Positions 48,513 through 64,000 of a stretch of DNA of 64,000 nt are shown here, piece by piece. The notes below the pieces were generated by a model that was not told where the DNA came from, made no database searches, and saw nothing but the letters and a program-made list of their open reading frames with translations. The first letter of the stretch is position 1. Every line of letters starts with the position of its first letter. Origin of the DNA: Comamonadaceae bacterium (GTDB taxonomy: Bacteria; Pseudomonadota; Gammaproteobacteria; Burkholderiales; Burkholderiaceae_C); assembly GCA_027488255.1 (NCBI GenBank), contig JAIYBZ010000019.1, positions 1 to 64,000 of the forward strand. Direction: 5' to 3'. The position numbers and the translations under genes are program-made.

Positions 48513-49724
48513 TCAGTCGAGCTTGGCGCCCGCCTGAAACCAACGTCCGATCAGGGCGCGGTCGTCTTCGGTGAGACCGGTCGCGTTGCCCATGGGCATT
48601 TGCTTGGTCACGACCACTTGTTGGTACATGTTTTGCGCGTTTTGCTTGATGAGCTCAGGGCTGTCCAAGCGCACGTTTTTCATTTGAACCTGCGCCCCAT
48701 GGCATGCCAAACAGTGTTGACCCACAAGGCTTTGCACTTGGGCAAAGCTCACGGGCATGGCCGGTACGGCAGCGGGCTTGGACGGCGCTGGGCGCAAAGC
48801 CACGATCACCCCAACAATCAAGACCACACCCACAGCAGCAAAAGGCCAAGGGTTGGCGGCGCGACCCAAGTGGTAACCATGGCGCTGCACAAAAAACTGG
48901 CGAATCAAGGCCCCGGCCAACATCATCACAAACAGCAACACCCAGCGGTGTTCGTGCGTGTACAAAAAGCTGTAGTGGTTGCTCAGCATCGCGAAGATGA
49001 CGGGCAATGTGAAATACGTGTTGTGCACGCTGCGCTGTTTGCCGCGTTTGCCGTGAATGGCCAAGGCGTTGGCGTCATAAGTCTCGCCGCTGGTCATGGC
49101 CGCCACCACTTTGCGTTGGCCCGGGATGATCCAGAAAAACACGTTGGCGCTCATGGCCGTGGCAATCATGGCCCCGACCAACAAGAAAGCGGCCCGGCCT
49201 GCAAACAACTCGTTGGCCAACCACGAAGAAAAGGCCACCACCACGATCATCAAGCCAGCGACGATCAGCTCGCCGTTTTGGCGAAAACCAAACAAGCGGC
49301 AAATGATGTCGTAGACAAACCAGAACGCCACCAAAAAAGCCACGGCAGCGCTGCCGGCCATGACCGGCGACCAATCCATCAGCGATTTGTCAATCAGGAA
49401 GGTGCCGGCGTTGTACAGATAGAGCACCGTGAACAAAGCAAAGCCGCTCAGCCAGGTGGAATAGCTTTCCCAATAAAACCAATGCAGTTTGGTGTGGATG
49501 ACTTTGGGCGCCACCATGTATTTTTGGGGGTTGTAAAAACCGCCGCCGTGCACCGCCCACATCGCGCCGCCCACGCCTTTTTCGAGGAGGTCGGGCGAAT
49601 TGGGTTTTTGCAGGTTGTTGTCGAGAAAAACAAAATAGAACGAGGACCCAATCCAAGCGATGGCGGTGATCACATGCACCCATCGCAACAACAGATTGGC
49701 CCATTCCAGCAGATACGTTTCCAT
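48513..49724 (-). CDS. puuD: Membrane urate oxidase with C-terminal cytochrome c (PuuD type)
   Basis: 403 aa from the ATG at 49724 (METYLLEW). About eight N-terminal membrane segments with ITAIAWIGSSFYFVFLDN at the start, then a C-terminal cytochrome-c domain with heme motif CLACH and a distal Met region (MPMGNATGL). This is the described PuuD-type urate hydroxylase, which oxidises urate to 5-hydroxyisourate and sends electrons to the respiratory chain instead of O2. It fits with uraH, uraD and puuE nearby, since no soluble uricase is encoded. A TGTATACA operator candidate lies 105 bp upstream. Confidence 0.93.
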   Translation of the reverse strand: METYLLEWANLLLRWVHVITAIAWIGSSFYFVFLDNNLQKPNSPDLLEKGVGGAMWAVHGGGFYNPQKYMVAPKVIHTKLHWFYWESYSTWLSGFALFTVLYLYNAGTFLIDKSLMDWSPVMAGSAAVAFLVAFWFVYDIICRLFGFRQNGELIVAGLMIVVVAFSSWLANELFAGRAAFLLVGAMIATAMSANVFFWIIPGQRKVVAAMTSGETYDANALAIHGKRGKQRSVHNTYFTLPVIFAMLSNHYSFLYTHEHRWVLLFVMMLAGALIRQFFVQRHGYHLGRAANPWPFAAVGVVLIVGVIVALRPAPSKPAAVPAMPVSFAQVQSLVGQHCLACHGAQVQMKNVRLDSPELIKQNAQNMYQQVVVTKQMPMGNATGLTEDDRALIGRWFQAGAKLD

Positions 49725-49828: not shown

Positions 49829-49836
49829 TGTATACA
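49829..49836. promoter_or_regulatory. TGTATACA palindrome, candidate GntR operator 1
   Basis: Upstream of puuD, between it and xdhC. It shares the extended CGAAGTGTATACA with the site at 56104. Confidence 0.65.
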
Positions 49837-49898
49837 GTTTAAGCGCCGGATTCCAGATCGGCGGCCAGCGCACGGCTAGGGAAAACCAGAATCAGGCT

Positions 49899-50696
49899 TT
49901 AAAGTGTTTGCAAGAGTTGTGCCGCCACCGCCACCGCAATCACTTCAGGCTCTTTGCCGGTGATGCCGGGCACGCCAATCGGGCAGGTGATGCGCGCGAT
50001 TTCGGCGGCTGTAAATCCCCGCTCCTCAAGGCGGTGTCGGAAGGTGGCCCATTTGGTGTGGCTGCCGATCAGGCCGACAAAAGGCAAATCGTCTTTTTCG
50101 CGCAAGCGCTGCAAACAGGCCACCACGATGTCCAGGTCCTCTGCGTGGCTGAAGCTCATGATCAAGACCCGAGTGCCCGGTGCCAAATCGGCCACCGCGG
50201 CATGCACCGGATTGGAGTGCTCGCAGACCACGTCATCGTCGATGTCGTTGGGGAAAATTTCATCCCGGCTGTCGATCCACAGCACCGCAAATGGCAATGG
50301 CGACAAAGTGTTGACCAAGGCCTTGCCGACATGCCCGCCGCCAAACAAAGCCAAGGGCGTGCGCTGGGGTTTCAACAGGTCACGCAAACGGGGCTCATCG
50401 GCGGCTTGCACGCGTTCAAAGCCCAAGGCCACAGCACCGCCGCAGCACTGGCCCAAGCTGGGGCCCAGCACTTGGCGCAACTGGGTTTGCTGGGTTTGCC
50501 CCTGCAACAACTGCCGCGCATGGGCCAAGGCCTGAAACTCCAAATGCCCACCGCCAATGGTGCCGTGTTCGCCTTGCGCAAACACCAGCATGCGGGTGCC
50601 AGCGGCACGCGGCACCGAGCCTTGTGTGGACAACACGGTCACCACCACCGCCTCATCGGTGCGAAGCCTCAGAAAGGCGCGATCCATCCAGTTCAA
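49899..50696 (-). CDS. xdhC: Xanthine dehydrogenase accessory protein XdhC
   Basis: 265 aa. N-terminal XdhC/CoxI domain (VVVTVLSTQGSVPRAAGTRM) and C-terminal Rossmann domain (LALFGGGHVGKALVNTL). It binds the molybdenum cofactor and inserts its sulfurated form into XdhB. It is the only xdhC in the window, although there are two xdhAB pairs, so it may serve both. Confidence 0.95.
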   Translation of the reverse strand: MNWMDRAFLRLRTDEAVVVTVLSTQGSVPRAAGTRMLVFAQGEHGTIGGGHLEFQALAHARQLLQGQTQQTQLRQVLGPSLGQCCGGAVALGFERVQAADEPRLRDLLKPQRTPLALFGGGHVGKALVNTLSPLPFAVLWIDSRDEIFPNDIDDDVVCEHSNPVHAAVADLAPGTRVLIMSFSHAEDLDIVVACLQRLREKDDLPFVGLIGSHTKWATFRHRLEERGFTAAEIARITCPIGVPGITGKEPEVIAVAVAAQLLQTL

Positions 50697-50802
50697 TCTC
50701 GTTGTCCGATCAATAAAGGGGTCTCAAAGGTGATTGCCAGTCAGACCGCGTCAATGCCAAAATTATCGCCAGCACAGAGTATGCCAAGGACAAGGACTGA
50801 GC

Positions 50803-51345
50803 ATGAAGCCCACCCTGCGACAGACACCGAATGCCAATGTGAACACCCCGCTCTGGTGGGGTGCATTTGGTTTGGCGCTGCTGATCTTGAGCGGCTGTTC
50901 CACACCGCCACCTCCCCCCGCACCCGCGCCGCCGCCCCCCGTGGCCCCCGCGCCCCCGCCCGTGGTCAAAGTGCCCGAACCCGAGCCGCCGCACACCGGC
51001 CCCATTTCATTGGCGCGGACCAGCAAAGAGTACCGAAAAGACGCGGCGGCGCATTTGTATGGCCACCAATCCCATCGCATTTACAAAGGGCGCATGCCGC
51101 CCATGCTGGAAGCCGTGGGGGTTTTGAATGTCGACATCGACCACAAAGGCCAAGTGAAAGGCATCGAGTGGATGCGTGCGCCCAAACACGTGCCGATGGT
51201 GATGGCGGAAATTGAGCGCATGGTGCGTTCAGCGGCGCCCTACCCGGCCCCCAAACACCTGCGCCAAGTCACCTACACCGAGACTTGGCTGTGGCACAAA
51301 AGTGGCCGCTTTCAACTGGACACCCTGACCGAGGGGCAAGACTGA
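50803..51345 (+). CDS. Proline-rich lipoprotein with TonB-like C-terminal domain
   Basis: 180 aa from the ATG at 50803. The lipobox LILSGC gives a lipidated Cys at about residue 32. A run of Pro/Ala/Val (about residues 34-60) then resembles the periplasm-spanning stretch of TonB. The C-terminal domain (AVGVLNVDIDHKGQVKGIEWMRAP; TYTETWLWHKSGRFQLDTL) resembles TonB or energy-transducer ends. A lipid anchor in place of a TonB membrane helix is unusual. The function is unknown. It is divergent from xdhC. Confidence 0.78.
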   Translation: MKPTLRQTPNANVNTPLWWGAFGLALLILSGCSTPPPPPAPAPPPPVAPAPPPVVKVPEPEPPHTGPISLARTSKEYRKDAAAHLYGHQSHRIYKGRMPPMLEAVGVLNVDIDHKGQVKGIEWMRAPKHVPMVMAEIERMVRSAAPYPAPKHLRQVTYTETWLWHKSGRFQLDTLTEGQD

Positions 51346-51443
51346 GGCTTGCAATAGCTAGGGTCTGAATGAGGGACGGCCTGCACAAGGGCCGGCCTGC
51401 GCAGGGAACGGGCTCCAGCAAGCGGCCCGTTGGCTCAGCGCTC

Positions 51444-51626
51444 TCAATCGGCCGAACGGACTGCCTCAGAGGCTGCTGAAGGCGGCACGGGCGCAGGCGC
51501 TTGCGCATCGGTGTGCTCAGGAAAGCACATTTTTTCGCCGTCCCAGCGCTGGCCACACCAGCAAAATCCTTCGTCGTTGATGATGCAAGTGCCGGTGCCA
51601 CAGCACCTGGTGTCTTCTGACATGGA
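51444..51626 (-). CDS. Small Cys-rich protein of unknown function
   Basis: 60 aa from the ATG at 51626, behind AGGAG. Six Cys within the first 35 residues (RCCGTGTC, FCWCGQ, KMCFPE) followed by an Ala/Pro tail, which suggests a metal-binding knuckle. It lies 73 bp upstream... of nothing on its own strand and just past the xdhB stop at 51699, so it may be the last gene of the xdhAB-2 unit. No characterised relative comes to mind. Confidence 0.7.
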   Translation of the reverse strand, partial: SMSEDTRCCGTGTCIINDEGFCWCGQRWDGEKMCFPEHTDAQAPAPVPPSAASEAVRSAD

Positions 51627-51698
51627 CCGCTCCTGAAATCCGTTGGGATGAAAAGCCGCAGGATGCCTGAATGACCCCCAGGCTTCCCGCAACTTCTG

Positions 51699-54059
51699 TC
51701 AAAGACCTGCTGTGGCCTTGGCTTTTTCGCAAGCCATCAAGATGCGCTCGGGGGTCGCTGGTGCGTCCAAATAGACCACCGCCTTGTGCTGGGCACTGGC
51801 GGCCACCGCATCGCGCAAAGCAAAGAAAGCCGACAAGCCCAACATCAAGGGCGGCTCACCGGTGGCCTTGCTGTTGAAGGGGGTGGGCTTCAAGTTGGCG
51901 TTGTCAAACAAAGTCACCTTGAAGTGCTCTGGAATATCCCCCGCCACCGGAATCTTGTAGGTGCTGGGACCGTGCGTGAGCAACTTGCCCTTCTTGTCCC
52001 AAATGCACTCTTCCATGGTCAGCCACCCCATGCCTTGCACATAGGCGCCTTCGATCTGGCCCTTGTCGATGGCGGGGTTGATGCTGCGGCCCACGTCGTG
52101 CACGATGTCCACGGCCTTCAGCCACCACTCGCCCGTGCGGGTGTCGATCTCGACCTCGCTCACAGCCGCGCCGTAGCAGTAGTAATAGAAAGCACGGCCA
52201 TTCAGGGTGGTGAAGTCGTATTTGATTTCAGGCGTCATGTAAAAGCCCGTCACCGACAAGCCCACGCGGTCCAGCCACGCTTGCTTGGTCACATCGGCCC
52301 ACTTCACGGCCTTGCCACCCCCTTGCACTTCGTTGTTGGCAAAGGTCACTTCGTTTTCAGCGCAAGCCAACATGCGGGCCGCCACGGGCTTTAAGCGATC
52401 ACGCATTTGAGCGGTCGCGTTCATGATGGCCGCACCGTTGATGTCGGCACCACTCGAGGCGGAGGTGGCCGAGGCGTTGGGCACTTTTTGCGAATCGGTC
52501 GCCGTTACCCGCACATGGTCCACGCTGATGCCCAAGCCATCGGCACAGACCTGCGCCATCTTGGTGTTGAGGCCTTGGCCCATTTCGGTACCGCCGTGGT
52601 TGCAGCTGACCGAGCCGTCCATGTACACCACCAACAAGGCACCGCCTTGGTTCAAGTGGGTGGCGGTGAAGCTGATGCCGAACTTCAAGGGCACCAAGGC
52701 CAAACCGCGCTTGCGGGTTTTGCTCTTGGCGTTGAAAGCGTGCACCGCAGCACGGCGCTCGGCGTATTGGGATTCACGCTCCACCTGGTCGATCACTTTG
52801 TCGCCCACCCAGTCTTCGATCAACTGGTTGTATTGGGTCGTCATGGTGTCGGGCGTGCCACTGATGGCCGGGTCTTTGTAGAGGTTGAGCTTGCGCACTT
52901 CCAAAGGGTCTTTGCCCAAGGTCATGGCGATTTCGTCCATCACGGTCTCGATGCCAAACATGCCTTGCGGGCCGCCAAAACCACGGAATGCGGTGGCGCT
53001 TTGGGTGTTGGTTTTGCAGCGGTGGCTGACCAACTTGAGCGCGGGGATGTGGTACGTGTTGTCGATGTGCAAGCAGGCGCGGTCGTTCACCGGGCCCGAG
53101 TAGTCGGTGCTGTAACCGCAACGAGACATGAGCGTGATGTCGGCGCCCAACACGTGGCCGTTGTCGTCAAAACCCACCTCGTAGTCGATGCGGAAATCGT
53201 GGCGCTTGCCGGTCACCGTCATGTCGTCGTCGCGGTTCACGCGCAGCTTGACGGGCTTGCCCAACTTGTGGGCGGCCAAAGCGGCGCTTTGGCTGAAGAT
53301 GCTGGCATTGCCTTCTTTGCCACCAAAGCCACCGCCCATGCGGCGGCAAATCACTTCCACATCGTTGGTGTGCAGGTTCAGGGCGTGTGCGGCCTCGCGT
53401 TGGTTGCCATCGGGGTGTTGGGTGGACACATACAGCGTGAGCTGCCCGTCTTCTTTGGGCACGGCATAAGTGATCTGGCCTTCCAGATAAAACTGCTCTT
53501 GTTGCCCGGTGCGGGTGGTGCCCTTGATTTTGTGCGGCGCCTTGGCCATGGCGGCGGCTGCATCGCCGCGTGTGATGCCTTTGGGCGGCATGATGAAGCT
53601 GTTGGCAGCCATCGCTTCTTCGATGGTCAAGATGGGCGGCAACTCTTTCACCAAGACTTTGGCTTTTTTAGCGACTTCGCGCGCATACAGCATGTCGCGC
53701 GCCACCACCACGGCCACAGCTTGGCCGACAAACTCGACCTTGCCTGCGGCCAAAAAAGGATCGTCGTGCACGATGGGGCCGCAGTTGTTTTCGCCCGGAA
53801 TGTCTTTCGCGGTGAACACCGCCACCACGCCGTGCTCTTTCAAAATGGCGGCGCGGTCGATGCCATCGCCAATCAACTCACCATGCGCCACGGGCGACAA
53901 AATCAATGCGGCATACAAGGTGCCCGCGTGCTCGGGGATGTCGTCGATGTAAGTGGCCGTGCCCGTCACATGCAGGTGCGCGGACTCGTGGATGACGTCG
54001 GTGCCTTGCTGCACGCCCGAGGTGGGCAGCAGGTTTTTGAGTGGGGTCGGAGCGTTCAT
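51699..54059 (-). CDS. xdhB: Xanthine dehydrogenase molybdopterin-binding subunit, copy 2
   Basis: 786 aa. The same architecture as copy 1: RRMGGGFGGKE, AFRGFGGPQG, and the catalytic Glu in KATGEPPLML. It starts directly after the xdhA stop (TGAATG), so the two are coupled. With copy 2 of XdhA it forms a second xanthine dehydrogenase, this one placed among the urate and ureide genes. It clearly diverges from copy 1, so it is not a recent duplication. Confidence 0.96.
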   Translation of the reverse strand: MNAPTPLKNLLPTSGVQQGTDVIHESAHLHVTGTATYIDDIPEHAGTLYAALILSPVAHGELIGDGIDRAAILKEHGVVAVFTAKDIPGENNCGPIVHDDPFLAAGKVEFVGQAVAVVVARDMLYAREVAKKAKVLVKELPPILTIEEAMAANSFIMPPKGITRGDAAAAMAKAPHKIKGTTRTGQQEQFYLEGQITYAVPKEDGQLTLYVSTQHPDGNQREAAHALNLHTNDVEVICRRMGGGFGGKEGNASIFSQSAALAAHKLGKPVKLRVNRDDDMTVTGKRHDFRIDYEVGFDDNGHVLGADITLMSRCGYSTDYSGPVNDRACLHIDNTYHIPALKLVSHRCKTNTQSATAFRGFGGPQGMFGIETVMDEIAMTLGKDPLEVRKLNLYKDPAISGTPDTMTTQYNQLIEDWVGDKVIDQVERESQYAERRAAVHAFNAKSKTRKRGLALVPLKFGISFTATHLNQGGALLVVYMDGSVSCNHGGTEMGQGLNTKMAQVCADGLGISVDHVRVTATDSQKVPNASATSASSGADINGAAIMNATAQMRDRLKPVAARMLACAENEVTFANNEVQGGGKAVKWADVTKQAWLDRVGLSVTGFYMTPEIKYDFTTLNGRAFYYYCYGAAVSEVEIDTRTGEWWLKAVDIVHDVGRSINPAIDKGQIEGAYVQGMGWLTMEECIWDKKGKLLTHGPSTYKIPVAGDIPEHFKVTLFDNANLKPTPFNSKATGEPPLMLGLSAFFALRDAVAASAQHKAVVYLDAPATPERILMACEKAKATAGL

Positions 54060-55535
54060 TCAAGCCACCTCTTTCGTTTGTTCTTCGATGAATTCCAAAA
54101 CCAAATTGCGGGCCACCAAGGCGCGGTAAGCCCATGTGGCGCGCAAACCATCGCGCGCCGTGAAACTGGCGGCAATGACGGCGTCCAGCTCGGCGGCTTG
54201 CACATCGGCAGGGGCCTTGCCTTCCAACACGGCTTCGAGTTGGGGCGCACGGGCGGGGAAGGGGCTGAGGCCGTTGTAAGCCAACTTCACGCCCTTCAAC
54301 TTGCCCGCCTCAAGGCGGTAGCTGATGGCGGCGCAAGTGGCCGAGATGTCTTGTTCAAAACGCTTGCTCACCTTGTGCGCGCGGAACACTTGGCCGGCCA
54401 CCGGTTTGCGCAATTCCACCGCCTCGATGAACTCGCCCGATGCCAAGACGTTTTTCTTCATGCCGGTGTAAAAGTTTTCCAGCAAAACATGGCGTGTCTT
54501 GTCACCCCGGCGCAGCACCAAGCTGGCGCCCAGCGCCAGCAAGCAGGGCATCGAGTCGCCAATCGGCGAGCCGTTGGCAATGTTGCCCGCCAGTGTCGCG
54601 GTCGAACGGATGGGCGGTGAGCCAAAGCGGCGCAAGACCTCGGCAAAGTCGGGATAGGCTTGGGCCATCAACGCTTCTACTTGTGTCAGCGAGACTGCGG
54701 CCCCGATGCGCCAGAGCGATTCGGTCTCGGTCACTTGGCGCAATTCTTTGACGTTGCCCAAATACATGATGTGCTCGGGGCGCGCGAACTGCTTGTTCAC
54801 TTGCAAACCAATTTCGGTGCTGCCCGCCAACAAGGTGGTGGTCGGGTGTTTGACCAAATAATCGGCCACCTCGGTCAGCGTGGCGGGCGAGACAAACTCA
54901 TTGCCCTTCTTGGTGCGCACCACCGGTTGCACGATGATGTCGCCGTCCAAGCTGAGGGTCGGCACGCTGGCCCGCTGAATTTGCTTGAGCAGTGGCACAT
55001 CGGCGCTGTCGTTCAGCTTGAGGGCTTCGGGTTTGGCACAGGCTTGGGTGGCCGATTCGATGATTGGCTTGTAGCCTGTGCATCGGCACAAATTGCCACT
55101 CAAGGCATCGGTGATTTGTTGGCGATTGGGGGTGGGCAACACTTGCACCAAATTGACCAAGCTCATCACGATGCCGGGGGTGCAAAAGCCGCACTGCGAG
55201 CCGTGGCACTTGACCATTTCGGCCTGCACGGGGTGCAAAGTGCCATCGGCGTTTTTGAGGCTTTCGACAGTTTTGACCGATTTGCCGTCCAGTGAAGGCA
55301 GCAATTGGATGCAGGCGTTGGTGGCCACATAGTCCACCCCGGTGCCGGCCGCGTTCAACTCGCCGACCATCACCACGCACGCGCCGCAATCGCCTTCGGC
55401 ACAACCCTCCTTGGTGCCGGTGCGGTGCATTTGCTCGCGCAAATAATCCAGAACTGTGGTGGTGCGGCGCTTGCCTTGGGCTTCGACGATTTGGCCGTCA
55501 AGCACAAAACGAACGGTGTTGGTGACTTGGGTCAT
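54060..55535 (-). CDS. xdhA: Xanthine dehydrogenase small subunit (Fe-S/FAD), copy 2
   Basis: 491 aa from the ATG at 55535 (MTQVTNTVRFVLDG). Fe-S ligands KEGCAEGDCGAC, CHGSQCGFCTPG and NLCRCTGYKP. FAD-binding segment LLAGSTEIGL and TLAGNIANGSPIGDS. Leftward operon xdhA-xdhB, possibly extended to the 60-aa Cys-rich gene. No TGTATACA site is seen upstream, so this pair may be controlled separately from puuD and uraH. Confidence 0.96.
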   Translation of the reverse strand: MTQVTNTVRFVLDGQIVEAQGKRRTTTVLDYLREQMHRTGTKEGCAEGDCGACVVMVGELNAAGTGVDYVATNACIQLLPSLDGKSVKTVESLKNADGTLHPVQAEMVKCHGSQCGFCTPGIVMSLVNLVQVLPTPNRQQITDALSGNLCRCTGYKPIIESATQACAKPEALKLNDSADVPLLKQIQRASVPTLSLDGDIIVQPVVRTKKGNEFVSPATLTEVADYLVKHPTTTLLAGSTEIGLQVNKQFARPEHIMYLGNVKELRQVTETESLWRIGAAVSLTQVEALMAQAYPDFAEVLRRFGSPPIRSTATLAGNIANGSPIGDSMPCLLALGASLVLRRGDKTRHVLLENFYTGMKKNVLASGEFIEAVELRKPVAGQVFRAHKVSKRFEQDISATCAAISYRLEAGKLKGVKLAYNGLSPFPARAPQLEAVLEGKAPADVQAAELDAVIAASFTARDGLRATWAYRALVARNLVLEFIEEQTKEVA

Positions 55536-55622
55536 GGTGCGGGGGGGGAATTGGAGGATCGGGAGGACCCCCAATTTTAAGACCCCACAGCGCTTTGAGG
55601 GCCCCCTGACCGGCCCGCGATT

Positions 55623-55653
55623 AAAAAAACCGCCCGGCTCTCAAGAGCCGCGG
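55623..55653 (-). terminator. Rho-independent terminator overlapping the uraH 3' end
   Basis: CCGCGGCTCT/AGAGCCGGGCGG stem containing the uraH stop codon, followed by T7 leftward. Confidence 0.75.
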
Positions 55654-55994
55654 TAGGTGGAATAGCTCCACGGGCTGGCCAACAGGGGCACGTGGTAGTG
55701 CTGGTCTTCATGGGCCACGCCAAAGTCGAGGCTGACTTGGTTCAAAAACGGCGGATCTGGCAACTCCACGCCCTTGGCCTTGAAGTAGTCACTCACATTA
55801 AAGACCAAACGGTAGGTCCCTTTGCGCAGACTGGCATGGTCATACAGCAGGCCATCGGGGTTGCGGCCATCGCTGTTCAAAGTGAAACTTTTGACCAATG
55901 TGGCCCGCTCACCTTGTGTGGTGTAGAGGCTGACCTGCATGCCGGCCGCCGGGCAACCGTGCATTGTGTCCAGAACGTGTGTGCTCAATCCCAT
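55641..55994 (-). CDS. uraH: 5-Hydroxyisourate hydrolase
   Basis: 117 aa transthyretin-like protein. The N-terminal STHVLDTMHGCPAAG and the C-terminal YRGS signature, which distinguishes the enzyme from transthyretin, are both present. It hydrolyses 5-hydroxyisourate, the PuuD product, to OHCU. No signal peptide, so it is cytoplasmic. It is divergent from the GntR gene, and the TGTATACA palindrome lies between them. Confidence 0.96.
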   Translation of the reverse strand: MGLSTHVLDTMHGCPAAGMQVSLYTTQGERATLVKSFTLNSDGRNPDGLLYDHASLRKGTYRLVFNVSDYFKAKGVELPDPPFLNQVSLDFGVAHEDQHYHVPLLASPWSYSTYRGS

Positions 55995-56103
55995 GGTGTG
56001 CTCGCTTCTCGTTGCAGATTCGTGCCAATTTAATTTGTGCCTGTTGTTGAATAAGGGAGCTTGTCCAAGGACTTTGGCACCTCATCCAGGCGGTCGACCG
56101 AAG

Positions 56104-56111
56104 TGTATACA
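56104..56111. promoter_or_regulatory. TGTATACA palindrome, candidate GntR operator 2
   Basis: In the 194-bp divergent region between uraH and the GntR/ureide operon, 110 bp from uraH and 78 bp from the GntR start. It is well placed to control both directions and the regulator itself. Confidence 0.7.
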
Positions 56112-56188
56112 ATTTTGCATTTAGTGGCTATGATTTCTGAAACAGAACCCCCCACACCCGGGGTCACCCCTCTAGGGACGCGAGAGAC

Positions 56189-56854
56189 ATGGAAACTTCC
56201 ACCACGCACCACATCGTCGAATCTTTGACCCGCGCCATTGTGGAACACCGCTTGTTGCCGGGCTCCAAATTGGCCGAACAAAAACTGGCCGACCACTTTG
56301 GGGTCTCGCGCACCTTGGTGCGGCAAGCCTTGTTTCAACTCTCACAAAACCGCTTGATCAAGCTCGAGCCCGCGCGGGGCGCCTTTGTCGCCGCGCCTTC
56401 GGTGGAAGAAGCGCAACAGGTATTTGCCGTGCGCCGCATGCTGGAGGCCGAAATGACCCGCGCTTTTGTGCAGCAAGTCAGCCCCGAACAAATCACCGCG
56501 CTGAAAGAGCACATCGTGCAAGAACGTGAAGCCGTGACCCAAGGCGACATCACCGGCCGCACCGAACTGCTGGGCGATTTTCATGTGCGCATGGCCGAGT
56601 TGATGCACAACGATGTGCTGGCCCAGGTCTTGGGCGAGTTGATCTCGCGCTGCGCGCTGATCACCCTCATGTACCAATCGCGCAACGAGGCCGAGCACTC
56701 CACCGACGAGCACGAAGCGATCGTGGCGGCACTGGCCGCGCGCGACGCCGACTTGGCGGTGCGTCTGATGCATGAACACCTCTTGCACGTGGAAGAAAGC
56801 CTGACTTTCGACCGCAAAGTGCCCACCCACGACATTTCACTGGCGCTGGCCTGA
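56189..56854 (+). CDS. GntR-family (FCD) transcriptional regulator of ureide genes
   Basis: 221 aa. N-terminal winged helix (LAEQKLADHFGVSRTLVRQALFQL) and a C-terminal FCD ligand-binding domain (FHVRMAELMHND; DEHEAIVAALAARDADLAVRLMHEHL). FCD regulators typically bind TNGTNNNACNA-type palindromes, and TGTATACA fits. It is the first gene of the rightward ureide operon, 28 bp before puuE. It is probably a repressor released by a urate-, allantoin- or allantoate-type metabolite. Confidence 0.92.
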   Translation: METSTTHHIVESLTRAIVEHRLLPGSKLAEQKLADHFGVSRTLVRQALFQLSQNRLIKLEPARGAFVAAPSVEEAQQVFAVRRMLEAEMTRAFVQQVSPEQITALKEHIVQEREAVTQGDITGRTELLGDFHVRMAELMHNDVLAQVLGELISRCALITLMYQSRNEAEHSTDEHEAIVAALAARDADLAVRLMHEHLLHVEESLTFDRKVPTHDISLALA

Positions 56855-56882
56855 GCCCACCGCACCTTGACGAGCTGACACC

Positions 56883-57833
56883 ATGAGCGTTTACAACTCC
56901 ACCCTGCCCTACCCCCGCGACCTGAAAGGCTATGGCCGCCAGGTGCCCCATGCGCAATGGCCCGGCGGGGCCCGCGTGGCGGTGCAATTTGTGCTGAACT
57001 ACGAAGAAGGCGGCGAAAACTCGGTGCTGCACGGCGATGCCGGATCTGAGCAATTTTTGTCAGAAATGTTCAACCCCGCCGCATTTCCAGATCGCCACAT
57101 CAGCATGGAAGGCATCTACGAATACGGCTCACGCGCTGGGGTTTGGCGCATCTTGCGCGAATTTGAAAAACGCCAATTGCCACTGACGGTGTTTGGTGTG
57201 GCCACCGCCTTGCAAAAACACAGCGACGTGACCGCCGCCTTCCAAGAACTGGGCTACGACATCGCCTGCCATGGTTTGAAGTGGATCCACTACCAAAACA
57301 TCGACGAGGCCACCGAACGCGCCCACATGGCCGAGGCCATGGAGATCTTGCAAAAGCTCACCGGCGAGCGGCCGCTGGGCTGGTACACCGGCCGCGACAG
57401 CCCCAACACACGCCGCTTGGTGGCCGATTTTGGTGGCTTTGAATACGACAGCGATTACTACGGCGACGACTTGCCCTTTTGGATGAAAGTGCGCAAGTCC
57501 GATGGCAGCGACGCCGCACAGCTGATCGTGCCCTACACGCTTGATTGCAACGACATGCGCTTTGCCTTGCCGCAGGGCTACTCGCATGCCGACCCTTTCT
57601 TTCAGTACATGAAAGACACCTTTGACGCGCTGTATGCCGAGGGCGACCCGAACGGCGACAACGCGCCCAAGATGATGAGCATCGGCATGCACTGCCGCCT
57701 GCTGGGCCGCCCCGGGCGCATCACCGCTTTGCAACGCTTTTTGGACCACATCCAATCGCACGACCACGTCTGGGTGGCTCGGCGCATCGACATTGCCCGG
57801 CATTGGAAAGCCACTCACCCCTACTTGGACTGA
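56883..57833 (+). CDS. puuE: Allantoinase, polysaccharide deacetylase type (PuuE)
   Basis: 316 aa NodB-fold protein, unrelated to the amidohydrolase-type allantoinases. Typical segments are YPRDLKGYGR, CHGLKWIHYQ, GWYTGRDSPNTRRLV and YDSDYYGDDLPFW. PuuE hydrolyses (S)-allantoin to allantoate without a metal. It ends 2 bp before the uraD fusion gene, so they are co-translated. Confidence 0.95.
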   Translation: MSVYNSTLPYPRDLKGYGRQVPHAQWPGGARVAVQFVLNYEEGGENSVLHGDAGSEQFLSEMFNPAAFPDRHISMEGIYEYGSRAGVWRILREFEKRQLPLTVFGVATALQKHSDVTAAFQELGYDIACHGLKWIHYQNIDEATERAHMAEAMEILQKLTGERPLGWYTGRDSPNTRRLVADFGGFEYDSDYYGDDLPFWMKVRKSDGSDAAQLIVPYTLDCNDMRFALPQGYSHADPFFQYMKDTFDALYAEGDPNGDNAPKMMSIGMHCRLLGRPGRITALQRFLDHIQSHDHVWVARRIDIARHWKATHPYLD

Positions 57834-57835
57834 AC

Positions 57836-59611
57836 ATGCCCTTGACTCTCGAACAACTCAACAGCGCCAGGCGCGAGCAAGCGGCTCAGTTGCTGGACGG
57901 CCTGTACGAACACTCGCCTTGGATCGCCGAACAGGCCTTGAACGAAAGACCGTTTCGCTCATTGGCCCACCTGAAACACGCCATGTGCGAAGTCTTGGCG
58001 CACGCCGGACGCGAGGCGCAGTTGGGCCTGATCCGCGCCCACCCCGAATTGGCGGGCAAAGCCATGGTCAGCAAAACGCTCACGGCCGAATCGACCCACG
58101 AGCAAACCAAGGCGGGCCTGACCGACTGCACGCCCGAAGAGTTTGCCAAGATCCAACAACTCAACGCCGACTACAACGCCAAATTTGGTTGGCCGTTCAT
58201 CTTGGCGGTGCGCGGACCACGCGGCGCGGGGCTGAACAAGCAGCAAATCATCGCGGCCTTTGAGCGCCGTTTGCACGGCCATCCTGATTTCGAATTGGCC
58301 GAGTGCTTGCGCAACATCCACCGCATTGTGGAGATTCGCCTGAACGACAAATTTGGTGTCGAGCCCTTGTTGGGCCACCAAGTTTGGGACTGGCAAGAAA
58401 AGCTGGCGCAACACTCTGACCCCGGCTTTGCCGAGTTGGGGCAATTGACCGTGACTTACCTGACGGACGCGCACCGCGCTTGCGCCCAACGCATCACGCA
58501 AACCATGCGCGACTGCGGTTTTGACGAGGTCTACACCGACGCCGTGGGCAATGTGGTGGGGCGTTACCACCCGGCCACTGCGGGTGGCCAATACCTGCTG
58601 ACGGGCAGCCACTACGACACCGTGCGCAATGGCGGCAAGTACGACGGCCGCTTGGGCATTTTTGTGCCCATGGCTTGCGTGCAGCAACTGCACCAACAGC
58701 ACAAGCGCTTGCCCTTTGGCATCGAGGTGGTGGCCTTTGCCGAAGAAGAAGGCCAGCGTTACAAAGCTACTTTCTTGGGCTCAGGGGCACTGATTGGCGA
58801 CTTCAAAGCCGAATGGCTGGAGCAGCAAGATGCCGATGGCATCAGCATGCGCGCGGCCATGCAACACGCGGGCCTGTGCATCGACGACATCGCGAAAATC
58901 AAGCGCGACCCCGCGCACTATTTGGGCTTTGTCGAGGTGCACATCGAGCAAGGCCCGGTGCTCAACGAAGTGAACATCCCTCTGGGCGTGGTGACCTCCA
59001 TCAATGGGAGCGAGCGCTATTTGTGTGAATTTATGGGGACCGCCAGCCACGCCGGCACCACCCCCATGGACCGCCGCCGCGACGCGGTGTGTGCCTTGGC
59101 CGAACTGGCGCTTTACCTCGAGCAACGCGCCACACAAGACGGCGACAGCGTGGCCACCATCGGCCAGCTGAATGTGCCGAATGGCTCCATCAATGTGGTG
59201 CCGGGCCGCTGCTTGTTCAGCCTGGACATGCGCGCGCCCACCGATGCCCAACGCGATGCCTTGGTGGCCGATGTGTTGAAGCAAATGCAGGCCATTGCCG
59301 AGCGCCGCGGTGTGCGTGTCAAGTCCGAATTGACGATGCGTGCCGCCGCCGCACCCAGCGCCCCTGAATGGCAAGCGCGCTGGGAAAAAGCCGTCGCCGC
59401 CTTGGGCGTGCCGCTGTTCCAGCTGCCCAGCGGGGCCGGCCACGATGCCATGAAATTGCACGAGGTCATGCCCCAAGCCATGCTGTTTGTGCGCGGCGAA
59501 AACGCCGGCATCAGCCACAACCCACTCGAATCCACCACCAGCGATGACATGCAGCTGTGCGTGGACGCCTTCACCCATGTTTTGAACCAACTCACGCAGG
59601 AATTGTCATGA
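57836..59611 (+). CDS. Fused OHCU decarboxylase (UraD) - allantoate amidohydrolase
   Basis: 591 aa from the ATG at 57836. Residues 1 to about 165 are UraD (PFRSLAHLKHAM; RAHPELAGKA with the catalytic His; NADYNAKFGWPFILAV). Residues from about 170 on are an M20 allantoate/ureidoglycolate-type amidohydrolase (GSHYDTVRNGGKYDGRLG; EEEGQRY; EVHIEQGPVL; SHAGTTPMDRR; GAGHDA). The fusion joins the step making (S)-allantoin with the hydrolysis of allantoate, two steps on either side of PuuE. It overlaps the next gene by 4 bp. Confidence 0.93.
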   Translation: MPLTLEQLNSARREQAAQLLDGLYEHSPWIAEQALNERPFRSLAHLKHAMCEVLAHAGREAQLGLIRAHPELAGKAMVSKTLTAESTHEQTKAGLTDCTPEEFAKIQQLNADYNAKFGWPFILAVRGPRGAGLNKQQIIAAFERRLHGHPDFELAECLRNIHRIVEIRLNDKFGVEPLLGHQVWDWQEKLAQHSDPGFAELGQLTVTYLTDAHRACAQRITQTMRDCGFDEVYTDAVGNVVGRYHPATAGGQYLLTGSHYDTVRNGGKYDGRLGIFVPMACVQQLHQQHKRLPFGIEVVAFAEEEGQRYKATFLGSGALIGDFKAEWLEQQDADGISMRAAMQHAGLCIDDIAKIKRDPAHYLGFVEVHIEQGPVLNEVNIPLGVVTSINGSERYLCEFMGTASHAGTTPMDRRRDAVCALAELALYLEQRATQDGDSVATIGQLNVPNGSINVVPGRCLFSLDMRAPTDAQRDALVADVLKQMQAIAERRGVRVKSELTMRAAAAPSAPEWQARWEKAVAALGVPLFQLPSGAGHDAMKLHEVMPQAMLFVRGENAGISHNPLESTTSDDMQLCVDAFTHVLNQLTQELS

Positions 59612-60861
59612 GCGCTACCGAACACCAATACGCACAACTCGACGCTTGGATCGACGCGCACTTTGACGAACAGGTGAAATTTTTACAAGCCTTGGTGCAG
59701 GTGCCCACCGACACCCCGCCCGGCAACAACGCGCCACATGCCGAGCGCACCGCAGAGTTGCTGGCCCCGATGGGCTTTGTGGCCGAAAAGCACGCGGTGC
59801 CCACGGCCGAAGTGAAGGCCTATGGTTTGGAGTCGGTGACCAACTTGATCGTGCGCCGAAAGTATGGCGAAGGCAAAACCATTGCCCTGAATGCGCACGG
59901 CGATGTGGTGCCCCCCGGCGAGGGCTGGACACACCCGCCCTACGGTGGCGAGATTCACAACGGCGCGATGTACGGCCGCGCCACTGCGGTGAGCAAATGC
60001 GACTTTTCGACCTTCACCTTTGCCACGCGCGCGCTCGAATCGCTGGAGGCCCCGCTCAAAGGCGGCGTCGAACTGCACTTCACTTATGACGAAGAATTTG
60101 GCGGCGAAATGGGCCCCGGCTGGTTGCTGGCCAAAGGCCTGACGAAACCCGATTTGATGATCGCTGCGGGCTTCAGCTACCAAGTGGTCACCGCGCACAA
60201 CGGCTGCCTGCAAATGGAAGTCACGGTGCAAGGCGAGATGGCGCACGCCGCCATTCCCGACAGCGGCACCGATGCCCTGCAAGGCGCGGTGCACATCTTG
60301 AATGCCCTGCACGCCCTGAACAGCGAGTACCTCAAAGTCACCTCGAAAGTGGAAGGCATCACCCACCCCTATTTGAATGTGGGCCTCATCTCAGGCGGCA
60401 CCAACACCAACGTCGTGCCCGGCAAAGTGGTGTTCAAGCTCGACCGCCGCATGATTCCTGAAGAAAACCCCGCAGAAGTCGAAGCCGCCATTCGCGCCAC
60501 CATTGCCGCTGCGGCCGCCAGTTTCAAGCCGCCTCGCGGTGGCCAACAATTGCAAGTGGACGTGCGCCGCATGTTGCTCGCCAATGCCATGAAACCGCTG
60601 TCTGGCAACCAACCGCTGGTGGACGCCATTCAAAAACACGGTGGCCAGGTCTTTGGCGAAGCCATTCCTGCCGTGGGCACGCCGCTTTACACCGATGTGC
60701 GCCTGTATGTGGAGCGCGGCATTCCGGGTGTGATCTACGGCGCAGGCCCGCGCACCGTGCGCGAGTCCAACGCCAAGCGTGCCGACGAGCATGTGCAACT
60801 GGAAGACTTGCGCCGGGCGACCAAAGTGATCGCTCGCACGCTGCTGGATTTGCTGGCCTGA
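59608..60861 (+). CDS. M20 metallohydrolase (ArgE/DapE-like) in the ureide operon
   Basis: 417 aa from the ATG at 59608, overlapping the uraD fusion by 4 bp. M20 family: VPTDTPPGNNAPHAERTAELL, metal ligands in LNAHGDVVPPGEGW and YDEEFGGE, and a dimerisation domain with HAAIPDSGTDAL. Closest to acetylornithine or succinyl-diaminopimelate deacylases by eye. As part of a ureide operon it may cleave a ureide intermediate (for example ureidoglycine or ureidoglycolate) or an N-acyl product. The exact substrate is not known. Confidence 0.88.
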   Translation: MSATEHQYAQLDAWIDAHFDEQVKFLQALVQVPTDTPPGNNAPHAERTAELLAPMGFVAEKHAVPTAEVKAYGLESVTNLIVRRKYGEGKTIALNAHGDVVPPGEGWTHPPYGGEIHNGAMYGRATAVSKCDFSTFTFATRALESLEAPLKGGVELHFTYDEEFGGEMGPGWLLAKGLTKPDLMIAAGFSYQVVTAHNGCLQMEVTVQGEMAHAAIPDSGTDALQGAVHILNALHALNSEYLKVTSKVEGITHPYLNVGLISGGTNTNVVPGKVVFKLDRRMIPEENPAEVEAAIRATIAAAAASFKPPRGGQQLQVDVRRMLLANAMKPLSGNQPLVDAIQKHGGQVFGEAIPAVGTPLYTDVRLYVERGIPGVIYGAGPRTVRESNAKRADEHVQLEDLRRATKVIARTLLDLLA

Positions 60862-60863
60862 AC

Positions 60864-61706
60864 ATGACCGCACCGCAGCTGGACACCCTGCGCCAACGCG
60901 TGCTCGCTTGCACCACGGCGCAGGAGGTGGCCGATTACCAGCGCGACGGTGCGGTGTGCATCCGCAAGCTGTTCACGCCAGACGAAATAGAACTGCTCAA
61001 AAGCGGCATCGAGGCCAACCTGACCCAGCCCAGCCCGCGCGGCATGGTGGCCAGTCGGTCGGACGATCCGGGGCGGTTTTTTGAAGACTTTTGCAACTGG
61101 CAAGACATCCCGCAGTACCAGCGCTTCATCTTTGAAACGCCCCTCGCGGCGTTAGCACAGCGCCTGATGCAAAGCCACACTGTGAGGCTTTACCACGACC
61201 ACCTGCTGGTGAAAGAGCCCGGCACCCGCCAGCGCACACCGTGGCACCAAGACCAGCCGTATTACAACGTCGACGGCCTGCAAAACATCAGTTTTTGGAT
61301 TCCGGTGGACCCGGTGCCCCGCGCCTCCACACTGGAGTTCATTGCCGGTTCGCACCGTGGCCCCTGGCTGATGCCGCGCACCTTCATGACGAACCAAGCC
61401 AAGTGGTTTCCAGAAGGCTCACTGGCCGAGTTGCCCGACATCGAAAACCAGCGTGAAAACTTTCCCATCTTGGGCTGGGATTTGCAGCCGGGCGACCTGG
61501 TCTGCTTTCACATGCTCAGCCTGCATGCCTCTGCGGGGGTAGACGGCACGCAACGCCGGCGCGTGTATTCGGTGCGCTTTTTGGGCGACGACATGACCCA
61601 CGCGCCCCGCCCCTGGGTCACCTCGCCGCCCTTCCCCGGCTTGGACCAAGTGCTGCCCGCAGGCGTGCCGATGGACCATGCGCTGTTTCCCTTGATGCCG
61701 GTTTGA
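60864..61706 (+). CDS. Phytanoyl-CoA dioxygenase (PhyH)-family oxygenase
   Basis: 280 aa, last gene of the operon, 2 bp after the M20 gene. Fe(II)/2-oxoglutarate dioxygenase: H-x-D iron motif in PWHQDQPYY, the distal His in CFHMLSLHAS, and the 2OG-binding Arg in RRRVYSVRF. The substrate is unknown. Its tight coupling to puuE and uraD suggests oxidation of a purine- or ureide-derived compound. No established purine pathway step uses a PhyH enzyme to my knowledge. Confidence 0.88.
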   Translation: MTAPQLDTLRQRVLACTTAQEVADYQRDGAVCIRKLFTPDEIELLKSGIEANLTQPSPRGMVASRSDDPGRFFEDFCNWQDIPQYQRFIFETPLAALAQRLMQSHTVRLYHDHLLVKEPGTRQRTPWHQDQPYYNVDGLQNISFWIPVDPVPRASTLEFIAGSHRGPWLMPRTFMTNQAKWFPEGSLAELPDIENQRENFPILGWDLQPGDLVCFHMLSLHASAGVDGTQRRRVYSVRFLGDDMTHAPRPWVTSPPFPGLDQVLPAGVPMDHALFPLMPV

Positions 61707-62028
61707 CTCGGCTTCAACTAGAAATCACTCGATCACTGGCCGCCGTTATGGGCAGGGTATTTACCCATCACTGACACCCATTTTTTGTATACAGTTGAAA
61801 ACACAAAAAAGCACACAAGTGATTTCGATGTCCATTGTTCTTGACGGTTTTTCGGATCCCCTCAGCCCCAAGGATGGGCACACCAACTTGGTGCCAACTG
61901 CGTGGCAAGCGGCACCAAAAAAGGGGATTTCTAGGGGAACTACCTGACATTCGCCGTCAGAATCGTGTTTGATAATGGCACCGAATTTGCTAAACAAGAT
62001 TCACCGTTTATTTGACCCTGGAGCCCCC
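61707..62028. other. Intergenic region with operator, upstream of the ABC binding protein
   Basis: 322 bp without a convincing gene. It holds the TGTATACA palindrome at 61786 with A/T-rich flanks and no strong terminator for the upstream operon. The rest shows nothing recognised. Confidence 0.5.
61786..61793. promoter_or_regulatory. TGTATACA palindrome, candidate GntR operator 3
   Basis: 236 bp before the ABC binding-protein start. It shares TTTTGTATACAGTT with the site at 63150. Confidence 0.65.
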
Positions 62029-63063
62029 ATGAACAAGCGTTTCTTACTCAAAGCCACTGCCGTGTTGGCCGCTGCCGCTGCCTTTGGCACCGCGCAAGCA
62101 CAAACCACCCCGATCAAGTTCCAACTGGATTGGCGCTTCGAAGGGCCAGCGGCTTTCTTCTTGGTGCCTGGCGCTAAGGGCTATTTCAAGGACGCCAAAC
62201 TGGACGTGACCGTGGACTCGGGCAACGGTTCTGGTGGTGCAGTGACGCGCGTGGCCTCGGGCACTTACGACTTGGGCTTTGCCGACTTGGCCGCCCTGAT
62301 GGAGTTCCACGCCAACAACCCTGACGCACCCAACAAGCCTGTGGCCATCATGATGGTCTACAACAACACCCCCGCTTCGGTGATGGCGTTGAAGAAATCG
62401 GGCATCAAGACCCCCGCAGACTTGGCTGGCAAAAAACTGGGCGCGCCCGTTTTTGACGCAGGCCGCCGTGCATTCCCCATCTTCCAAAAAGCCAACGACA
62501 TTGGCAACGTGACCTGGACCGCGATGGATCCTCCATTGCGTGAAACCATGCTGGTGCGCGGTGACGTCGATGCGATCACCGGCTTCACCTTCACTTCTTT
62601 GCTGAACATCGAAGCGCGTGGCGTGAAAGCAGCCGATGTGGTGGTCATGCAATACCCTGACTTTGGCGTCAAGTTGTACGGCAACGCGATCATCGCTTCG
62701 CCCAAAATCTTGAAAGAAAACCCAACGGCTGTGAAAGCGTTCTTGAGCGCCTTCGCCAAAGGGGCCAAAGATGTGATCGCCAACCCCGCGGCCGCCATCG
62801 AAACCGTGAAAGCCCGTGACGGCATCATCAACGTCGAACTCGAAACCCGCCGTTTGCAACTGGCCATCGACACCGTGATCAACAGCCCCTCGGCACGCGC
62901 CGAAGGTTTTGGCCAAGTGAATGGTCCCCGTTTGACCCTGATGGCTTCGCAAGTGTCCGATGCCTTCGGCACCAAAACACGTGTGAAAGTGGACGACATC
63001 TGGAACGGCTCGTTCCTGCCCAACGCCAAAGAGCTGGACATCCTGCCCAAGCCTAAGAAGTAA
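62029..63063 (+). CDS. ABC transporter substrate-binding protein, NMT1/THI5-like
   Basis: 344 aa from the ATG at 62029. Signal peptide (KATAVLAAAAAFGTAQAQ), then the NMT1/SsuA-type fold (IKFQLDWRFEGPAAFFLVPGAKGYFKDAKLDV). The family binds pyrimidine precursors, sulfonates, nitrate or heterocycles. The shared TGTATACA operator and location suggest import of a purine, allantoin or related ureide, which is an inference. Confidence 0.9.
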   Translation: MNKRFLLKATAVLAAAAAFGTAQAQTTPIKFQLDWRFEGPAAFFLVPGAKGYFKDAKLDVTVDSGNGSGGAVTRVASGTYDLGFADLAALMEFHANNPDAPNKPVAIMMVYNNTPASVMALKKSGIKTPADLAGKKLGAPVFDAGRRAFPIFQKANDIGNVTWTAMDPPLRETMLVRGDVDAITGFTFTSLLNIEARGVKAADVVVMQYPDFGVKLYGNAIIASPKILKENPTAVKAFLSAFAKGAKDVIANPAAAIETVKARDGIINVELETRRLQLAIDTVINSPSARAEGFGQVNGPRLTLMASQVSDAFGTKTRVKVDDIWNGSFLPNAKELDILPKPKK

Positions 63064-63149
63064 TGCACCCTGTGTGCAGCGGTTCTGCCGTGCAGCCCTG
63101 AACCCACTTGCGCTCCCCCCGAGCCAGTGGGTTTTTCAAGACCGCATTT

Positions 63150-63157
63150 TGTATACA
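63150..63157. promoter_or_regulatory. TGTATACA palindrome, candidate GntR operator 4
   Basis: 28 bp before the ATPase start codon, a position typical of steric repression. The ATPase therefore has its own controlled promoter although it follows the binding-protein gene. Confidence 0.65.
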
Positions 63158-63184: not shown

Positions 63185-64000
63185 ATGTCACAAGAAGCCT
63201 TCGTCGATTTTCAGAATGTCTGGCTGGCCTACAACGACGAGTTGCTGGCGCAAAACCACTTTGCCGTAGAAGACATCAACCTGCAGGTCAAACAAGGCGA
63301 GTTCATCGCCATTGTGGGTCCCTCGGGCTGTGGCAAATCCACATTCATGAAGCTGACCACCGGCCTCAAGATGCCCAGCAAAGGCCGCATTTTGGTGGAC
63401 GGTCAACCGGTCACCGGCCCGCTCAAGATCAGTGGCATGGCATTTCAGGCTTCGTCCTTGTTGCCTTGGCGCACCACGCTCGACAACGTGTTGTTGCCGC
63501 TTGAAATCGTGGAGCCCTACCGCTCGAATTTCAAAGAGAAAAAAGCCGAGTACATCGAGCGCGCCCGCAAACTGCTCAACACCGTGGGCTTGGGGGGTTA
63601 CGAAGACAAGTTTCCATGGCAACTGTCGGGCGGCATGCAACAACGCGCCAGCATTTGCCGCGCCTTGATTCATGAGCCCAAGATGCTGCTGCTGGACGAG
63701 CCCTTTGGTGCCTTGGACGCCTTCACCCGCGAAGAACTCTGGTGCATCTTGCGCGACCTGTGGACCGAGCAAAAGTTCAACGTCATCTTGGTCACCCACG
63801 ACCTGCGCGAATCGGTCTTTTTGGCCGACACCGTGTATGTCATGAGCAAGAGCCCTGGCCGATTTGTGGTGAAAAAAGAAATCGATTTGCCACGTCCGCG
63901 TGACCTCGAAATCACCTACACCCCCGAGTTCACCAACATCGTGCACGAGTTGCGCGGCCACATCGGGGCCATGCGCAAAACGGGTGCCACCATCAACCAA
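63185..64000 (+). CDS. ABC transporter ATP-binding protein (cut by window end)
   Basis: At least 272 aa, with no stop before the window edge. Walker A GPSGCGKST, Q-loop, signature LSGGMQQR, Walker B LLLDEPFGALD and H-loop VTHD are all present. It belongs to the SsuB/TauB/NrtD class that pairs with NMT1-type binding proteins. The permease gene is expected just beyond the window. Confidence 0.93.
   Translation, partial: MSQEAFVDFQNVWLAYNDELLAQNHFAVEDINLQVKQGEFIAIVGPSGCGKSTFMKLTTGLKMPSKGRILVDGQPVTGPLKISGMAFQASSLLPWRTTLDNVLLPLEIVEPYRSNFKEKKAEYIERARKLLNTVGLGGYEDKFPWQLSGGMQQRASICRALIHEPKMLLLDEPFGALDAFTREELWCILRDLWTEQKFNVILVTHDLRESVFLADTVYVMSKSPGRFVVKKEIDLPRPRDLEITYTPEFTNIVHELRGHIGAMRKTGATINQ

Follow-up and report, generated by a model that had tools for sequence, protein, structure and literature searches.

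Four copies of an 8-bp palindrome, TGTATACA, lie in a 64,000-nt stretch of DNA from a freshwater Comamonadaceae bacterium (GenBank assembly GCA_027488255.1, contig JAIYBZ010000019.1, positions 1 to 64,000; the window below means this whole stretch), and they are quite probably the operators of the VanR-type GntR regulator encoded beside one of them, which would repress its own operon and the urate and ureide genes until an inducer made by the pathway releases it. Judged by genome comparison, this is a well-supported prediction of a local repressor regulon of a known kind, and the GntR next door is very likely its regulator. For Limnohabitans, an abundant member of the lake plankton, and for related Comamonadaceae, the comparison of dozens of genomes provides a predicted regulator and operator of urate and ureide utilization. 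The preliminary description of this DNA had proposed a regulon of urate oxidation, ureide breakdown and an importer. Conservation bears this out as a likely co-regulated set, but the target of the third copy was probably an NCS2 permease gene and not the gene of the importer's substrate-binding protein (SBP). The four predicted operators, each an exact TGTATACA, are as follows.

49829..49836, no strand: copy 1, 105 nt 5' of puuD in the xdhC–puuD gap.
56104..56111, no strand: copy 2, in the divergent uraH–gntR promoter region.
61786..61793, no strand: copy 3, 243 nt 5' of the SBP start; probable leftover of a lost NCS2 gene.
63150..63157, no strand: copy 4, 35 nt 5' of the start of the ATP-binding cassette (ABC) ATPase gene.

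The preliminary description had placed one identical palindrome at 49829, 56104, 61786 and 63150; the copies are exact, no other occurs in the window, and all four are intergenic (xdhC–puuD, uraH–gntR, phyH–SBP and SBP–ATPase). Against the four observed, 100 dinucleotide shuffles of the window gave a mean of 0.07 and a maximum of 1. The genome (2,616,823 bases, 38 contigs) holds seven exact copies, four of them within one 13.3-kb stretch (binomial 2e-8, calculated post hoc for a stretch of that size). The flanks are shared pairwise, as had also been noted, with CGAAGTGTATACA common to copies 1 and 2 and TTTTGTATACAGTT common to copies 3 and 4, and many relatives carry the full symmetric form AAAGTGTATACACTTT at the position of copy 2. 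Loose searches did not separate signal from background: TTGTATACAA with 2 mismatches matched 10 places in the window against 10.3 by chance, and TGTATACARTTT with 2 mismatches returned mostly background over the whole genome. Exact cores and their position were therefore used instead. The extended 15-mer AAGTGTATACANTTT is present in 56 of 60 genus genomes (the genus meaning here Limnohabitans and kin), whereas its reversed form, used as a control, occurs in 1 of 60; the four genomes lacking the 15-mer are 77–82% complete. Background frequency in the genome, named beforehand as a reason to abandon the regulon, is therefore not what was found.

The three genomic copies beyond the window differ in setting. 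The copy at C12:327819 falls inside an open reading frame, and that at C26:9812, which has the longer form TGTATACAGTTT, lies between a ppx-like gene and the gene of a small basic protein. This last site (C26:9808) was dropped as a fifth regulon member: the extended form is present, yet only 3 of the 19 homologous loci scanned (25 listed), its own included, have a copy. The copy at C2:8040 stands just 5' of another GntR-like gene that adjoins a Rieske-oxygenase-like gene (both named from sequence), and it is perhaps that gene's own operator and a candidate for cross-talk.

In a search of 60 related genomes, a full-length GntR match of 72–96% identity was found in 34 of 35 same-genus genomes, the remaining one (G002) having a 90% fragment. 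We compared 32 genus pieces, which comprise 29 of the 34 with 11–37 kb around gntR, two loci of 2.9 and 3.7 kb, and the window genome; G008, G003 and G031, listed without a gntR locus, are outside this set. Clade A, the window's own, has GntR identities of 92–96%, clade B comprises ten genomes at 71–78%, and G015 (82–83%) stands between them. The uraH–gntR gap carries the palindrome in all 32 pieces, and so does the xdhC–puuD gap in all 28 pieces with both genes; apart from TGTATACA and words overlapping it, no 8-mer reaches a frequency of 90% in both gaps. The palindrome stays with puuD where this gene has relocated, 80 kb away in G013 and to another contig in G022. Its distance from the puuD start is about 105 nt in clade A and 28–29 nt in clade B. 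Only 2 of the 93 palindromes in the genus pieces are inside a mapped gene, both in G033.

The association extends beyond the genus. In a GTDB scan, the best 80 of 97 loci were grouped by GntR identity and title into 47 Limnohabitans-like loci, 26 others (GntR 71–83%) titled as Comamonadaceae genera except two titled only Burkholderiales or Betaproteobacteria, and 7 Thiomonas-like loci (58–60%). The Limnohabitans-like loci have the site at uraH–gntR in 46/46 cases with adjacent uraH, at puuD in 9/9, at NCS2 in 18/19, at the ATPase gene in 9/10 and at SBP in 0/16. In the 26 other loci it is found at uraH–gntR in 24/24, 5' of gntR without adjacent uraH in 2/2, at NCS2 in 10/10 and at SBP in 11/12. 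The core is missing from the Thiomonas-like loci both at gntR (0/7) and at puuD (0/4), and the four of them with adjacent uraH have TTGCATACAA-like and TTGTATGCTA-like sites instead; operator and regulator possibly drifted together here. The uraH–gntR gap of these four (L166, L167, L172 and L173; GntR 59–60%) contains two TTGCATACAA-like sites in inverted order in place of TGTATACA. Around still more distant GntR genes (44–48%), exact cores occur within the few kb read in 3 of 7 loci (L270, L271 and L274; not L272, L273, L275 or L296). One public contig titled as a metagenome-assembled genome of Akkermansia muciniphila (L118) contains a Limnohabitans-like locus (GntR 94%) and is likely a mislabelled record.

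As a control, puuD-bearing genomes of the order Burkholderiales were compared by their regulator. Of 150 genomes searched, 35 besides our own matched puuD and 29 with a locus were examined; six (G162, G053, G107, G151, G153 and G195) were left out as poor puuD matches. A site within 300 nt of puuD was seen in one of the 29, G108, whose GntR is 81% identical. A GntR with 74% identity or more was lacking in 26 of the genomes, and 0 of these 26 had a site in that range (for two of them the available upstream DNA spans just 102 and 276 nt). Nine stretches without the site contain allA with a 37–38% GntR paralogue (six), allA alone (G020) or a 39–40% paralogue alone (two).

The regulator and its predicted promoter are located as follows.

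56189..56854, + strand: gntR, FCD-type (VanR-like) GntR regulator and predicted binder, from profile, PDB and fold matches.
56106..56134, + strand: predicted gntR promoter, with −35 TATACA inside the operator, a 17-nt spacer and −10 TATGAT, from a promoter scan.

That an FCD-type GntR is encoded beside copy 2, as the preliminary description had stated, is upheld by two domain matches over cut-off, PF00392 (56.7 bits) and PF07729 (86.6 bits), which place the protein in the FCD subfamily; it is the likely binder of the palindromes. Eight matches to this GntR exist in the genome. PhnR of Burkholderia was considered as an identity and rejected (TIGR03338, 127.7 bits against a cut-off of 271.5). 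Regulators of the VanR group have six effector-domain helices. FadR has one helix more than this group in its effector domain, according to passages of PMC7797058. Our predicted model has six effector-domain helices between residues 72 and 203 (mean predicted local distance difference test score 74.5; ten-residue blocks 62–97) and no extra one, which assigns the modelled protein to the VanR group. In the fold search, PDB folds with VanR in their title come out ahead of FadR itself, and chains of a Brucella GntR, PmiR, Atu1419, McbR and AlkR(VanR) rank high; with an overall root-mean-square deviation of about 10 Å and a model of middling quality, only the type of fold was read from this search. 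Arg41 (R41) of the VSRT motif is invariant in 18 GntR sequences, and the hit offset and the family motif suggest that it is the counterpart of Arg45 of Atu1419. Three histidines (H132, H175 and H197) are invariant as well, and the usual fourth metal-ligand position (Asp or Asn), four before H132, is Leu128 with D130 nearby, in an alignment made by eye.

Autorepression of gntR by occlusion of its −35 element is likely, and the promoter geometry is its strongest support. The promoter scan proves nothing alone, since it gave 3 promoter-like matches in the region against 3.1 expected. However, the 17-nt geometry between −35 and −10 recurs in 32/32 genus pieces and in 5/8 loci of other genera, with one more at 18 nt, and the −10 variants in the genus pieces are TATGAT (16), TATCAT (13), TATTAT (1), TAAGAT (1) and TATAAT (1). 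In the direction of uraH, the −35 geometry was found in 0 of 40.

HpxS of Klebsiella is a GntR-type regulator found among the hpx purine genes. No earlier description of the present regulon was found among the literature matches listed, a search that ran without RegPrecise and most subscription papers. Among the closest known systems is Atu1419 of Agrobacterium fabrum (VanR group; PDB 6Z74, 6ZA0, 6ZA3, 6ZA7 and 6ZAB), which shares the FCD-GntR fold and the operator core with the window GntR. It matches this GntR in sequence (E 3.5e-6) and, at 23% identity, also in a Foldseek comparison of folds (E 9e-9). Passages of PMC7797058 describe Atu1419 as a repressor that binds ATGTATACAT in its own promoter region and in those of its targets, with Arg45 reading a G and the palindrome overlapping the −10 box of two genes. 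The same passages give it as a tetramer controlling hydroxycinnamate degradation, with two palindromes 190 bp apart that can be used with DNA looping. The window promoters, unlike those of Atu1419, have one exact site each. Furthermore, TGTATACA fits the palindrome consensus of operators of the FadR (FCD) subfamily, NyGTNxACNy, given in passages of a 2015 comparison of regulons (PMC4494728). In the main text of that paper, "allantoin" is absent, "purine" occurs once (for DNA bases) and "urate" only inside "accurately", and its passages contain no urate or ureide regulon.

In the mechanism we propose, a GntR dimer on copy 2 would block RNA polymerase at gntR–puuE–uraD/allC–M20 and probably at uraH; copy 1 would serve GntR for control of puuD, and copy 4 for control of the importer's ATPase and permease genes. 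With the conserved sigma-54-type promoter of SBP taken into account, the importer would likely need nitrogen to be scarce as well as the repressor to be released. Our first guess for the inducer is allantoate, a carboxylate. Several observations weigh against this mechanism or narrow it. Leu128 in the usual ligand position weakens the guess of a carboxylate inducer. At puuD, NCS2, the ATPase gene and SBP, the search for a −35 geometry gave nothing consistent, which is why occlusion is argued only for gntR. The ATPase site is present in 12 of 14 clade-A pieces and absent from all 8 clade-B pieces, and outside the genus it is found at 0 of 10 ATPase genes among the 26 other loci. The exact puuD site is missing in 8 of 21 of these loci (present in 13/21), two of the misses being Hylemonella, where puuD lies directly behind uraH. 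Two control genomes, G152 and G192 (GntR 74 and 76%), have the site at gntR and none at puuD, and in G117, whose best GntR is 46% identical, a site lies 465 nt from puuD in a uraH/puuE neighbourhood. Three Thiomonas-like loci (L165:7328, L168:2864 and L170:7323) have an exact TGTATACA 2.5–2.7 kb 5' of gntR, before other genes. The 8-mer before the second GntR-like gene at C2:8040 makes cross-talk with this regulon possible, and the genus genomes share ancestry and are hence not independent.

These points leave room for other readings of the same sites. The operators might belong to another FCD-GntR of the genome, such as that at C2:8040 or a paralogue, or to several regulators with one shared core; the GT-N-AC core is common to FCD operators in passages of PMC4494728, the genome offers eight matches to the neighbouring GntR, and the same 8-mer precedes another GntR-like gene. 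However, the site accompanies the neighbouring gntR in every genus piece and, Thiomonas-like loci apart, in 26/26 outside loci; genomes without a close gntR have no site at puuD, the nine allA or paralogue stretches are devoid of it, and the longer flank AAG...TTT marks the urate/ureide cluster and not C2:8040, so that we regard this assignment as improbable. Somewhat less improbable, though still unlikely, is that the neighbouring GntR acts as an activator or has its own gene as sole target of repression, with the other sites tuning expression rather than gating it. The consistent promoter overlap at the gntR site only would agree with this, and the differing distances of the puuD site in clades A and B would also allow other roles, whereas the position of the site within the gntR −35 box argues for repression there, and the fold match ranked first among those titled as DNA complexes, Atu1419, is a repressor. 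A chance occurrence, or a restriction, uptake or repeat element, deserves hardly any weight: the palindrome has only eight bases and loose searches are at background, but it is rare in the genome, lies between genes and is deeply conserved in position, all of which speaks against such an origin.

Nitrogen control appears to be superimposed on the importer genes, for which the following features were recorded.

62029..63063, + strand: SBP, NMT1/THI5-type ABC substrate-binding protein (PF09084).
63185..64000, + strand: ABC ATPase gene, continuing past the window.
61976..61991, + strand: predicted sigma-54 promoter of SBP, TGGCACCGAATTTGCT (GG-N10-GC), with exact TGGCAC and TTGC.
61881..61893, no strand: NtrC-like inverted repeat CACCAACTTGGTG.

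Past the window follow an ABC permease gene and then ureD, urea-ABC and urease genes (the latter by sequence). The pattern TGGCACN5TTGCW has a single exact match in the window, at 61976–61991, and at a threshold of at least 8 of 10 bases a sigma-54-type promoter precedes SBP in 23/23 genus pieces and 12/12 other loci, against a background of 438 in 3000 random 300-nt pieces (15%). For urtA, a gene expected to be nitrogen-controlled, such a promoter was found in 12 of 13, and an rpoN-type gene is present in the genome. Given this conserved sigma-54-type promoter, the importer is likely to respond to nitrogen status as well. NtrC sites at SBP are only suggested: the repeat at 61881..61893 resembles what we take to be an NtrC site, and TTGGTG and GCACCAAAA-type blocks recur in the alignment of SBP upstream DNA, while a plain NtrC-type pattern gave 38 matches over the window, below chance. 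In 6 of 8 clade-B genomes, a GntR site lies 45 bp 5' of the −24 element of SBP, a spacing at which the bound regulator could interfere with an activator. A sigma-54 promoter at puuD is not claimed, because the 23 of 28 loose matches lie about 200 nt 5', in or by xdhC, with the background at 15%. For Burkholderia cenocepacia H111, passages of PMC5491218 describe a response to NtrC of xdhAB, of a urate-oxidase cluster and of a GntR gene whose locus tag (I35_1967) lies nearby. Sigma-54-type promoters at SBP and urtA resemble this NtrC/sigma-54 control as those passages present it (PMC5491218), but unlike in H111, no such promoter is claimed here for puuD or xdhAB. Because the operator accompanies the importer genes in many lineages and the nitrogen-type promoter is there in every piece examined, purines or ureides become a candidate substrate class for the NMT1-type ABC importer.

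The third copy is best explained differently from the other three, and two features of the phyH–SBP gap bear on it.

61704-62028: phyH–SBP gap, which reads as a splice of NCS2 upstream DNA and SBP upstream DNA.
61827..61910: zone of an inferred deletion junction, with DNA like that upstream of relatives' NCS2 on the left and of relatives' SBP on the right.

Many relatives have an NCS2 permease gene between M20 or phyH and SBP, and in 11 of the 12 genus pieces with the gene the palindrome lies 83–86 nt 5' of NCS2 (35 nt for the other type of permease). An NCS2 gene (PF00860) was not found in this genome, which is 97% complete, in a search that was positive in 11 of 14 control genomes. The stretch from about 61779 to 61826 aligns with the relatives' NCS2 upstream DNA and that from about 61880 or 61911 to 62027 with their SBP upstream DNA. 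In comparisons with seven genomes, 29–39 positions of the 48-nt left piece agree with NCS2 upstream DNA and 20–22 with ATPase upstream DNA, which speaks against descent of copy 3 from the ATPase operator. Among the clade-A pieces with SBP, only this genome has a site within 300 nt of that gene (1/15), and an ancestral SBP operator was rejected in view of the relatives' NCS2 genes, the splice alignment and the missing NCS2. Copy 3 is therefore probably a leftover operator of a lost NCS2 permease gene, as far as the alignments indicate. The sequence TGTATACANTTNNGAACAC, common to several relatives' NCS2 and ATPase operators, hints at a common origin of these two. It would be too strong to say that no purine permease is left, as an NCS1-type match (PF02133, E 1.6e-15) is located at C19:2732.

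Copy 3 may nevertheless have become a true SBP operator through promoter capture, with selection for it in this lineage following loss of the permease, a course we hold possible but less probable than not. The copy is intact despite the lost permease, and an operator at SBP exists in clade B (6/8) and in most loci outside the genus; against this, its flank is of NCS2 type, it lies 190 bp 5' of the sigma-54 promoter (61786 and 61976) compared with 45 bp in the six clade-B genomes with the site, and it may simply not yet have decayed. More doubtful still, and offered tentatively, is a further consequence, in which the loss of NCS2 fused its operator to the sigma-54 promoter region of the NMT1-type importer, so that one deletion rewired the regulon and made uptake of ureides or urate by this importer depend both on nitrogen shortage, through sigma-54, and on pathway substrate, through GntR, with the importer taking the place of the lost permease. 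As a probable leftover, copy 3 would be a regulatory site that has outlived its gene, and it cautions against naming targets by position alone.

The remaining features belong to the purine and ureide pathway.

48513..49724, − strand: puuD, membrane urate oxidase (Urate_ox_N, PF06181, 409.7 bits).
49899..50696, − strand: xdhC, xanthine dehydrogenase accessory gene (TIGR02964 over cut-off).
51699..55574, − strand: xdhB (51699-54059) and xdhA (54060-55574), named from sequence; no operator in front.
55635..55650, − strand: terminator-like hairpin after uraH, separating it from xdhA.
55641..55994, − strand: uraH, hydroxyisourate hydrolase (TIGR02962 over cut-off).
56883..57833, + strand: puuE, allantoinase (TIGR03212 over cut-off).
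57845..59611, + strand: fused OHCU decarboxylase (UraD) and allantoate amidohydrolase-type domain, from profile matches.
59608..60861, + strand: M20 (ArgE/DapE-type) hydrolase, from profile matches.
60864..61706, + strand: PhyH-type dioxygenase gene, from a profile match.

Exclusion of xdhAB from the regulon fits the window but is to be treated with caution. The xdhA–uraH gap contains the palindrome in 0 of 31 genus pieces, and the hairpin after uraH stands between the two genes; terminator-like matches in the region number 29 against 20.3 expected, modestly above chance. However, uraH and xdhA are spaced by 70 nt in the window and 50–84 nt in ten clade-B relatives, and with such short spacing read-through is possible. 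A second, diverged xdhAB pair at 33640-37454, 39% and 49% identical to the first, likewise has no palindrome nearby. The PhyH-type gene sits between the ureide genes and the importer and is present in some relatives only. The search for a ureidoglycolate lyase (PF04115) was positive in 9 of the 21 same-genus genomes covered and negative in our own, which is counted among the 21. The M20 hydrolase, present in all 27 pieces that reach past uraD/allC, may carry out the ureidoglycolate step.

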